From NCBI GenBank assembly GCA_002713215.1, contig PAVO01000005.1, positions 124,001-188,000 on the forward strand: a stretch of 64,000 nucleotides of DNA. The letters run 5' to 3'. Shown one piece after another: positions 19,127-56,783 of this stretch; within the stretch, counting starts at the first letter, position 1; every line of letters begins with the position of its first letter. Below the pieces are notes generated by a model. It worked only from the letters and a program-made list of their open reading frames with translations, was not told where the DNA came from and ran no database searches. The stretch is from Crocinitomicaceae bacterium (lineage in GTDB: Bacteria; Bacteroidota; Bacteroidia; Flavobacteriales_G; Salibacteraceae). The position numbers were made by a program, and so were the translations under genes.

Positions 19127-19130
19127 CTGC

Positions 19131-19159
19131 GTTGGTGCGAGCGTCCCGCTCGTTCTAAC
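19131..19159 (+). repeat. Left REP of the RAYT unit
   Basis: The core hairpin CGAGCG-TCC-CGCTCG has a perfect 6-bp stem with outer GTT and AAC ends. It is the same family as the palindromes at 11682 and 15241. It lies 45 bp before the transposase start. Confidence 0.75.
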
Positions 19160-19203
19160 GTGTACTTAAGCTAAGTTACAATCATTACTTTTGACCATAA
19201 TCG

Positions 19204-19746
19204 ATGAGTAGAAAATACAAGTTTCACAATTTATCAGGCCTTTACTTTATAAGTTTTGCAACCGTATATTGGATTGATGTTTTTATCAGAGAACACTATT
19301 TTGAAGTATTGATACAAAGTATTTCTTATTGTAGAAAAGAAAAAGGCATGGAAGTATATGCCTATTGTGTTATGCCGAGTCACATCCATTTAATTTTTCG
19401 ATCTTCAAAAGATGACCCTTCAGGATTAATTCGCGATTTTAAAGGATTCACGTCTCGTAAAATGTTAAAAACCATTGAAGAAAACCCAAAAGAAAGCAGG
19501 AAAGAATGGTTACTTCAAATGTTTGAAAAGGCTGGAAAGGAAAGAAGTAATGTTAAAAGAAAACAATTTTGGCAGCAGCATAATCAACCAATCGAATTGT
19601 GGAACAATAAGGTAATCGACCAAAAAATCGATTACATTCATAACAATCCGGTTGTTGCCGGTTTTGTAACAAATCCGGTAGATTGGAAATACAGTAGCGC
19701 CAGAAATTATCAGGACGATGAAACCGTTTTGAGCATAGATGTTTAG
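19204..19746 (+). CDS. REP-associated tyrosine transposase (RAYT, IS200/Y1 family)
   Basis: 180 residues, a Y1 single-strand DNA transposase. The HUH motif is MPSHIHLIF (H60, H62) and the catalytic Tyr is probably Y144 in IDYIHNNPV; the family tail DWKYSSARNY is present. REP hairpins of opposite orientation flank it (19131-19159 and 19767-19793), the classic layout in which RAYTs mobilise REP sequences. Other REPs in the window lie upstream of the PEGA genes and at 11682. The gene looks intact. Confidence 0.9.
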   Translation: MSRKYKFHNLSGLYFISFATVYWIDVFIREHYFEVLIQSISYCRKEKGMEVYAYCVMPSHIHLIFRSSKDDPSGLIRDFKGFTSRKMLKTIEENPKESRKEWLLQMFEKAGKERSNVKRKQFWQQHNQPIELWNNKVIDQKIDYIHNNPVVAGFVTNPVDWKYSSARNYQDDETVLSIDV

Positions 19747-19766
19747 GGTGTTGATTGGTATGGTAG

Positions 19767-19793
19767 GCACGAGCGTGACGCTCGCGCTAACCG
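19767..19793 (-). repeat. Right REP of the RAYT unit
   Basis: The core hairpin GAGCG-TGA-CGCTC ends in CGCTAACC. Read on the minus strand it starts GGTTAGCGCGAGCG, like the other REPs, so it is inverted relative to the left REP. It lies 20 bp after the transposase stop. Confidence 0.75.
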
Positions 19794-54060: not shown

Positions 54061-54781
54061 GGGATTCAAACCCTGATACCATTTCAGGCTTGTTCCCAAC
54101 AAGACGCACCTGGGAACAATCCGAGATACAGTCCTTTTTTACCTCTTGATAGTTTCCATGTTGTAGTAGATACGGTCCGGTGTTCGGAAAACAAACTCGA
54201 CTTGGTTTATCGTGAGGATTTTAATTGGAAATCAGGAAAGCAGTTTGATTGGAAAAACTGGAACGATGTATTTCCTTATGAGGAGGGGTTGGAATGCGAT
54301 GGCATTGTAAAAACCTATGGTGATGCCAAGTTTTCTTCGAGTGCTTTTGCAACGCAATGGCCCAATAGAACAATCCCTAAGCTAATTTCGTGGCACAACT
54401 ATGAGTTCGACTCGTTAAATGGTAGAATGAGCCTGGTAACTCGTGCTGAGCCGATTCAGATACTGAACAATCAGTGCGGAACCTTAAAAGTCAATTTTAA
54501 CAGTGCTAAAATGGTTTCCAAAGCATCCCATTAAGCGATTTTATAATTTAGGATTGACCCATAATAGTGAAGAAATCGAGAATTGTCCTCAGCTATCTGT
54601 ATCAATAAATACGGATGATCAAGGGATTTTTGGAACTAGTTTGGAAAACGAGTACGCATTGTTATATAAAGCACTAGATAAGGAAACCGATGAAGAAGGA
54701 GAACAGCTATACAATAGTACAATGATCTATGATTGGCTAGATCGCATTAGAAAAATGGGAGTAGAGCAGAGCTTTCGTTAA
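54061..54781 (+). pseudogene. Frameshifted lipoprotein-like gene
   Basis: The first frame is open from 54061. It contains a lipobox-like LIPFQAC (Cys codon 54091-54093) and runs to 54534, then stops after KMVSKASH. A second frame (54503-54781) continues with HPIKRFYNLGLTHNSEEIEN to GVEQSFR. The overlap and the matching style suggest one gene with a shift near 54520. No complete signal peptide precedes it (a TGA at 54058 closes the frame). No known domain. The region 53981-54060 has no separate gene. Confidence 0.55.
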
Positions 54782-54904: not shown

Positions 54905-55107
54905 TGCTACACTTCATTGCGAAAAAAGTGTAGCAACCCTTTCAAAAATTCAAACCCGTAGCACCACCTCTTATAAGATGCTACACCCGTTTCTAAAAAA
55001 ACCGTAGCACTGCTTTTTATTTTTCCCTGTAGCAGGTCTAAAAAAAAATTAGCGTAGCACTACTTATTTTTAATGGTGCTATACTAAATCCCAGAAACAA
55101 TGTAGCA
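54905..55107. repeat. Phased array of GTAGCA hexamers
   Basis: Nine sites start at 54905 (TGCTAC), 54930, 54958, 54979 (TGCTAC), 55004, 55029, 55054, 55077 (variant TGCTAT) and 55102; unmarked ones read GTAGCA. Gaps are 25, 28, 21, 25, 25, 25, 23 and 25 bp. Spacers are A+T-rich and unlike each other. It lies between the convergent ends of a broken lipoprotein gene and the DUF4139 gene. The rest of 54782-55157 holds no gene. See findings. Confidence 0.75.
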
Positions 55108-55157
55108 CGCAAGTTCGGTTTGTAATCCAAGCGAATAACCAATAAAATGGTATTCTC

Positions 55158-56783
55158 CTACAAATTCACCGCCTTATCCTTTGGAAATTTTACCGAATAC
55201 TTAAACACCACCTTCTTGCTCTCACCAGGACCAAGTTCTAACGGCCAGGTTAAAAATCCGGTTTTTTCATCATATTCCGCGCCGGAAGATTCTTCCAGTT
55301 CCACCACAATCTCCTTATTACTCGAAATGGGGATTTGTTCTTCAACCACTAGCTTAACCGCAGTCATTTTGGTGTTCTTTACCATCACTTCCAGGCCAAT
55401 GGTTTCCGTCTTTTTGGAGCCAATGGAACTGCTTTTACAAAAGTCTTCAATTCGCTTACGGGATACTACGATTTGTTTATCCACTCCCAGGGAAATATTA
55501 AGCGTGTCTTCCGTGCTTTTGGCATTGATAAAACTCTTACCTACAAAGGTGCCGTCGAGGTAGATATTGGCGCTACCCGACATTAACTGCAGTTGCTCCC
55601 ATTCCGAAACCGAAGCCACTAGGTAGGCATCCTGCTTTTTCTTAGGTACCGTATAGTAATTGAAATTGGCCTTCATATCCAGGTTTTTCATATTCACCTT
55701 GTGTTCATTACCATCAGAAGGAATGTTGTAGGGGATAGGAATCTCAAACGAGAAGTTGAGGTCCGATTCGGAAATGGCTGCTGAAATCGGTTTTGCCTTT
55801 GCAAAATCAACCTTCTTCATAACCTTATCTTCCGCAAGATCAGCACCTGCTTTGTTATATTCAGTTTTTCGGTTGGAATACATATCATATTTTCCACCAA
55901 CGGAACCGTAATTACGAACCGTAATAAATCCCAACCTCCAGGGGGTTAGGTCCGGTTTAATGGGAGATACATGCGGGTTGTTAGTCGAAAGGCTTAAATC
56001 GACACCCTTCCAGTCTATACCGGTATTTTGTACTACCTGGGCGTTATAAACCAGTTCGAGGGGTTTGTCCACACCGTTGGCTCTTATGTCGTAGTTGGGT
56101 GACCAACTGGCACCGTGCACCATATACTTCAGTTCAAAGCTCGAAGGGATAGTTTGGTCTACTGCAACTTCTACCAGCACTTCCGATGTATACATATTTT
56201 TAGCTGCCAATTGATTCATCTGGTTTTGGATCAATCGAATCGATTCCTGCAATTCGGTTTCCTTTTTACTAACCCCGATAATTAGTTTCATAATCTCCGA
56301 TAGGCGAGAGCGGTACAAATTGGCCAGGTCTTGAACGTCCTTGATATCGAATCCTGTTTGAGTACCAGCACCAACCTGTTTGTTGGCCAAAATCATTTTC
56401 TGCTCCTCCTGGTACACCCTTTTCATTTCTTGCTGGTACCACAATTCATTTTGAGCAACTTCCAGGGAATCTTTCAGGCTTTTGTATTTCGGCGAATCTT
56501 TTACCGGGTTGAAATAATTCTTTCGGCTTGAAACCGATAGAATGGTAAAATCTCCATTGCCACCCACCTGTACACTGTTGGGGTTGATGTTATTGGACAG
56601 GCCGTTAAAATTGAGGTGGTAAACACCTTTACGCAAGGTCTTTTTTGCAGAGCGTTCTACCTGCGCACCCGAGAGGAAAACCGTAACGTGTTCAATTTTA
56701 GAATCAACCTGAACTTCTTTGTCTTGGGCAGTACTACTTAAATAAACAGATAATAGAATACTAAGGATTAGTGCAGTTCTCAT
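55158..56783 (-). CDS. DUF4139 (mucoidy-inhibitor-like) envelope protein
   Basis: 541 residues. Signal peptide (to about 20), an N-terminal part starting VTVFLSGAQVERSAKKTL, a coiled coil around 90-190 (QNELWYQQEMKRVYQEEQ), and a DUF4139 domain to the end (for example VKNTKMTAVKLVVEEQIPIS, then GFLTWPLELGPGESKKVVF). These are the two halves of the MuiA-type family. Location is periplasmic or surface; exact function not known. Confidence 0.85.
   Translation of the reverse strand: MRTALILSILLSVYLSSTAQDKEVQVDSKIEHVTVFLSGAQVERSAKKTLRKGVYHLNFNGLSNNINPNSVQVGGNGDFTILSVSSRKNYFNPVKDSPKYKSLKDSLEVAQNELWYQQEMKRVYQEEQKMILANKQVGAGTQTGFDIKDVQDLANLYRSRLSEIMKLIIGVSKKETELQESIRLIQNQMNQLAAKNMYTSEVLVEVAVDQTIPSSFELKYMVHGASWSPNYDIRANGVDKPLELVYNAQVVQNTGIDWKGVDLSLSTNNPHVSPIKPDLTPWRLGFITVRNYGSVGGKYDMYSNRKTEYNKAGADLAEDKVMKKVDFAKAKPISAAISESDLNFSFEIPIPYNIPSDGNEHKVNMKNLDMKANFNYYTVPKKKQDAYLVASVSEWEQLQLMSGSANIYLDGTFVGKSFINAKSTEDTLNISLGVDKQIVVSRKRIEDFCKSSSIGSKKTETIGLEVMVKNTKMTAVKLVVEEQIPISSNKEIVVELEESSGAEYDEKTGFLTWPLELGPGESKKVVFKYSVKFPKDKAVNL

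Follow-up and report, generated by a model that had tools for sequence, protein, structure and literature searches.

A phased intergenic array of short words in a Bacteroidota genome and its kinship with arrays beside a small HTH gene pair

What is the nature of a set of nine short, regularly spaced words that fills the gap between two convergent genes? The question is raised by a short region of the window, i.e., the whole stretch of 64,000 nucleotides analyzed here, in which GTAGCA/TGCTAC occurs eight times exactly and once as the variant TGCTAT, the nine sites following each other at a pitch of ~25 bp (gaps of 25, 28, 21, 25, 25, 25, 23, and 25 bp) and in the orientation - + + - + + + - + (Table 1). 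The nine sites and their gaps had been listed in a first-pass annotation and were recovered as such, and both lie far above chance: in 20,000 order-1 simulations of the same 251 bp no more than three sites arose, compared with eight observed, which led to the rejection of a chance origin, and the regularity of the array was unmatched in 200,000 random placements. Any 6-mer reached at most six copies in 5,000 simulations of 251 bp, and the site density expected by chance is 0.15 per 251 bp, so that the 0.1 per 200 bp estimated initially was about right. A protein-coding tandem repeat was also rejected, as the array is intergenic and its units, with gaps of 25, 28, 21, and 23 bp, keep neither one frame nor one orientation. 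Another dispersed repeat, GCACGCAAGTTCGGTTTG[TA]AATCC, abuts the last site (window 55104-55127) and is also found at contigs C39 and C7 and partly at C19 (L139, ~1360-1395; L141, ~1294-1310). Neither an HTH gene nor a CC gene, the two genes that accompany related arrays (see below), was found inside the 64-kb window.

Table 1. Sites of the window array and the genes on either side (window coordinates; a dot denotes mixed orientation).
Feature	Position	Strand	Basis
Whole window array, nine sites	54905..55107	.	Motif scan and simulations
Site 1, TGCTAC	54905..54910	-	Motif scan
Site 2, GTAGCA, within GTGTAGCA	54930..54935	+	Motif scan
Site 3, GTAGCA	54958..54963	+	Motif scan
Site 4, TGCTAC, within TGCTACAC	54979..54984	-	Motif scan
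Site 5, GTAGCA, first of a direct triplet found by pattern search	55004..55009	+	
Site 6, GTAGCA, in the direct triplet	55029..55034	+	Motif scan, pattern search
Site 7, GTAGCA, in the direct triplet	55054..55059	+	Motif scan, pattern search
Site 8, variant TGCTAT	55077..55082	-	Read from the sequence
Site 9, GTAGCA, overlapping with the beginning of another dispersed repeat (GCACGCAAGTTCGGTTTG)	55102..55107	+	Motif scan, similarity search
Left neighbor, a pair of overlapping ORFs (weak adenosine-deaminase-like match in the second), neither of them an HTH or CC gene	54202..54781	+	
Right convergent neighbor, DUF4139/DUF4140 protein, unrelated to the neighbors of other arrays	55158..56783	-	

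Whole-genome pattern and similarity searches of the genome to which the window array belongs (G000, 5.03 Mb in 56 contigs, probably a member of Bacteroidota judging from its genes) revealed at least five arrays in total, namely the window array on C5, two on C39 (254 kb and 203 kb), one on C28 (17 kb), and one on C26 (118 kb), all of which lie between genes, be these convergent, divergent, or in tandem. The GTAGCA hexamer is present as first described, but the conserved unit is longer: an alignment of 73 sites from seven arrays gives GTGTAGC[CA] with an A-rich 5' flank and a T-rich 3' flank, the units being separated by A+T-rich spacer and the A/C choice at position 6 being shared by the units of an array. 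The spacers had been described as not similar, yet the window array aligns with two other G000 arrays at 73-76% identity over 84-95 bp, hence it belongs, in diverged form, to a family of repeats. Identity between the homologous arrays of C28 and C39 is 92% in the core and 69% in the spacers, and super-units of 74-75 bp can be discerned in the G000 arrays. Unphased GTAGCA clusters, the occurrence of which would have spoken for a chance phasing, were not seen, as no GTAGCM cluster (four in 200 bp) lies outside the five arrays in 514 kb of G000. Among the 35 genomes of the family that were searched, G008, which belongs to another genus, carries two arrays with the same word, while a class-wide pattern search outside the family (395-genome sample) returned the paired word only as single chance matches, and a pattern scan of wider genome contigs gave no array of 25-bp pitch among the matches listed. 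In a CRISPR array, identical repeats of ~23-47 bp all point the same way and alternate with unrelated spacers that hardly vary in length. Here just 6-8 bp are conserved, the orientation is mixed, and spacers are homologous between arrays, so a CRISPR was discarded, as it had been in the first-pass annotation.

Two of the five G000 arrays, those on C28 and C39, are located directly upstream of a duplicated, hitherto unnamed pair of genes, termed HTH and CC. Together they form a common unit of ~1.4 kb, comprising the array, a leader that carries extra sites up to the HTH start, the HTH gene, and the CC gene, and the homology between C28 and C39 ends at the edges of this unit. The HTH protein has 88 aa and is of Cro/CI-type by profile search, and the two copies, which have one word in common, are 81% identical. 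CC is a protein of 137 aa that is predicted to be helical by reading of its sequence; it belongs to no Pfam or NCBIfam family, its PHROG matches are weak and uninformative, and a comparison of its profile with solved structures returned just designed helical proteins and other weak, equally uninformative matches. According to the ORF lists, the operon consists of these two genes only at C28 and C39, as well as at the loci in G030, G004, and G323 discussed below, and the HTH genes of the system encode 71-92 aa. A literature search for the combination of an array with an HTH-CC pair found no description of it.

The same build recurs in other genomes with other words: a word of 6-8 bp, present in 6-16 copies of mixed orientation, is combined with a leader, an HTH gene, and a CC gene of ~137 aa. 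The pairs in G030 and G004 were first reached as HTH homologs, and a CC homolog was then seen downstream; HTH matches in G023, G141, and G160 were set aside as generic HTH proteins that lack a CC partner. In G030, the pair lies beside eight TGGCGCA sites with a pitch of about 18-20 bp. G004 harbors four pairs: at C108, 16 TTGGCAAC sites are found upstream and 10 downstream at a 17-bp pitch; at C199, GGTGCA occurs 13 times in 350 bp with a pitch of 22/31 and then 25/28 bp; at C70, there are five CCGGTC sites downstream and no more; and C43 has no long array. The HTH protein of C43 is by alignment most like that of C108, and the core of the C108 word, GTTGCC, occurs three times within ~135 bp immediately before the C43 pair. 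Judged from these sequences, the word appears to follow the HTH protein, as C28 and C39 share one word and the C43 upstream region has the core of C108. In G004, a number of contigs break off within or at an HTH-CC/array locus (L355, which is C108 of G004, L349, and L350), hence this 6.9-Mb genome probably holds more arrays than its assembly shows.

A search with the CC profile alone returned just G000, G004, and G030 within the family, with weak matches in G015 and G022, and one genome of another family, G323, in the 395-genome class sample. In G323, an HTH gene directly precedes CC, and arrays of TTGTGAA (TTGTGAAC) with a 27-bp pitch are located on both sides. As this locus was found by the CC profile without prior knowledge of arrays, it provides the strongest evidence that the arrays and the gene pair belong together. 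In total, long arrays are present at six of the eight HTH-CC pairs. Such accumulations are rare elsewhere: no 6-mer reaches eight copies in 350 bp in 514 kb of G000 outside the arrays, and in 1.2 Mb sampled from G323 and G030 this density is confined to a few repeats of short-period or coding type. That arrays accompany the gene pair again and again, in unrelated lineages and with different words, points to a protein-docking array rather than to chance or a simple repeat. The word thus changes with the lineage, while the build is kept, and the pitch is 17, 18-20, 25, or 27 bp depending on the lineage, which suggests that no fixed helical phasing is required. In several arrays of unrelated words, a direct run is closed by inverted copies (e.g., "+-------+," "-+++++++-," and "+-+++++++-"), and the arrays of G323 and C39b consist almost wholly of direct repeats. 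The 27-bp spacers of G323 (L359, L406) alternate between two types, giving a 54-bp super-unit, and one of the types is palindromic at one locus (GCATTCcccGAATGC).

Further features were noted around these loci. The weak CC homologs of G022 (L339/L351) and G015 (L340/L352), the former with an internal stop, have no detected arrays and are possibly decayed modules. Defence-like genes lie near several arrays (L161, 9044-14150; L162, 6592-8703; L328, 2271-2681), and include PDC-M30A/B and Septu PtuA/PtuB-like genes at C39, a gene for a HerA-like ATPase at the 203-kb locus of C39, and Vsr in G030.

The window array itself has no adjoining HTH-CC pair and is tied to the C28 and C39 modules by repeat homology. 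The array at 203 kb of C39 is likewise an orphan in G000, while the C26 array is situated at a contig end and was left out of this judgement. Orphans are not peculiar to G000. In a blind sample of 800 kb (20%) of G323, the whole genome of which has one CC gene, two more array loci were encountered. One of these, L373, has retained both arrays as well as the leader (85% over 68 bp) but not the genes, hence an orphan array can originate by loss of the genes; the other, L406, lies between convergent genes, like the window array. In G008, no CC gene was detected by the CC profile (210-contig assembly) beside its two arrays, so either arrays can persist there without the module or CC was missed in this assembly.

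The window array is therefore best explained, with a probability of about 0.6, as a gene-less copy of the cis element of the HTH-CC system, which would be bound in trans by HTH proteins encoded elsewhere. According to this model, the HTH protein would bind each copy of its own word and control its own promoter from the adjoining array, and in G000 it would also occupy the orphan arrays in trans, supplied by the module copies on C28 and C39. CC might then link bound HTH proteins, by which the arrays would become multivalent docking or bridging points. Among the options raised by the first-pass annotation, a multi-site binding array is thus the best supported, given the similar arrays beside a small HTH gene in several lineages; binding by HTH, the role of CC, and action in trans are what we infer from this arrangement, and a contribution to chromosome tethering or segregation, to repression, or to titration may be envisaged as the function in the cell.

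The same arrays could be read as a neutral or selfish tandem-repeat family that is spread by duplication and recombination and has no protein partner, the gene pair being a passenger. Such a family would account for spacers that are homologous between arrays, for the super-units of 74-75 bp in G000 and 54 bp in G323, which indicate tandem duplication, for the sharing of position 6 within arrays, as homogenization would give, and for the pitch that varies by lineage and the sporadic distribution among the genomes searched. It is conceivable for the orphan copies but unlikely overall, as the core is conserved above the spacer, arrays of the same kind but of unrelated words recur beside homologous HTH-CC pairs, and the terminal copies are inverted in several unrelated arrays. 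A hairpin in RNA or DNA, comparable to BIME/REP elements and acting in transcripts as terminator, stabilizer, or RNase target, appears quite improbable. Folding is significant for the + strand of the window array (z = -4.1), C28 (-5.4), and C39 (-4.0), some facing pairs have GGG/CCC inner stems, and position 6 keeps pairing (C..G or A..T) at several of them, but good folding is expected by construction from inverted copies of a word, facing pairs do not clearly exceed shuffles in the complementarity of their inner parts (4 of 15 at p<=0.1), folding is weak for the opposite strand of the window array (z = -2.6) and for C39b (z = -1.9), and arrays such as those of G323 and C39b are made up nearly wholly of direct copies. 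The structured 3' region considered at first is weakened further by the variety of intergenic settings in which arrays occur and by an Rfam search, which gave no match at E<=1. Nothing was found that supports an integration site.

Elements of the REP type that are mobilized by a RAYT (TnpA_REP) transposase, of the class tagged by GTAG, came into consideration because the sites contain GTAG, GTAG-tagged REPs form clusters (PMC3733652), and the window encodes a Y1 transposase of 180 aa (19204-19746). However, this transposase is flanked by its own GCGAGCGT..CGCTCGC palindromes and not by the word of the arrays, Y1 transposases are equally present in relatives without these arrays, and no palindrome stands at the GTAG foot of individual units (in the 73 aligned sites, GTAGC is not followed by a conserved one). 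A RAYT/REP origin, two defining features of which are thus missing (the GT[AG]G-foot palindrome and the same element flanking the RAYT), was rejected and is very improbable. The transposase with its palindromes (window 19130-19790) is an observation in its own right: its length and YIHNNP motif fit subclass 2.6 of TnpA_Y1 of Bacteroidetes (PMC6006769), and a similar gene is found in G008 (L318).

A strong form of the binding-array idea is that the arrays are centromere-like and serve chromosomal segregation, as with StbA/stbDR or type Ib par. Multiple copies of a short word upstream of a small gene of DNA-binding type, with further copies elsewhere on the replicon and a trans-acting protein, correspond to the arrangement of StbA on R388 (PMC3098194), and in type Ib centromeres direct repeats occur together with inverted ones, separated by A+T-rich gaps (PMC5016525). 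Against this, a non-exhaustive look at array-linked regions noticed no ParA/ParM/TubZ-like gene, and HTH and CC have no match in plasmid and phage collections. The system is moreover present in few of the genomes searched, hence it cannot be the main chromosomal segregation system, and a centromere in this sense is a rather doubtful reading.

Beyond the docking of HTH proteins to the window array, it is tentatively conceivable that the arrays belong to an undescribed chromosomal system of Bacteroidota, in which fast-diverging pairs of an HTH protein and a helical linker, each with a private word of 6-8 bp and with gene-less docking arrays, bridge or position loci without an NTPase. An unexplained intergenic repeat is now tied to a candidate binding protein, and the homologous HTH proteins beside different words, several of them within G004, amount to a built-in comparison of specificity. 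If the orphan arrays are bound in trans, they would represent a chromosomal multi-site docking system without a recognized motor protein, and the pairs of HTH protein and word would offer a natural set from which to learn how small HTH proteins recognize DNA; if they are not, what remains is a clear example of a repeat family accompanying a regulator.

Among known systems, REP/BIME elements with their RAYT (PMC3733652, PMC6006769) resemble the arrays in being extragenic, short, GTAG-containing, inverted as well as direct, and clustered, whereas the arrays have no palindrome per unit and no cognate RAYT adjoining. The TAACTGA direct-repeat sets consist of heptamers joined head to tail with no spacers, and most of them lie immediately before a start codon (PMC4679880); they are likewise intergenic sets of a short word with a sporadic distribution and long sets in some Bacteroidetes, but in contrast to the arrays described here no associated gene pair is reported (PMC4679880). 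In type Ib par sites (ParG/parH, omega/parS), ribbon-helix-helix proteins work with a ParA ATPase (PMC5016525). The arrays share with them the direct and inverted short repeats, the A+T-rich gaps, and the position upstream of a small DNA-binding gene (PMC5016525), while they differ in the Cro/CI-type HTH protein and the helical protein, with no ATPase noticed in the ORF lists. The closest working analogy is StbA with the stbDRs on R388 (PMC3098194). The stbDRs are 9-bp direct repeats with 2-bp spacing on a plasmid, with StbB and StbC as partners (PMC3098194), whereas the arrays here are chromosomal-looking, of mixed orientation and 17-27 bp pitch, and accompanied by a helical partner of no known family; in profile searches, HTH gave just generic Cro/CI-type matches and none to a family of StbA type. 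As to architecture, StbA is a small DNA-binding protein whose gene adjoins arrays of a short word that surround the StbA promoter, and its word recurs at other promoters of the replicon, where StbA acts in trans (PMC3098194); similarly, arrays of a short word are located at the promoter of the HTH gene at C28, C39, the G030 locus, C108 and C199 of G004, and the G323 locus.
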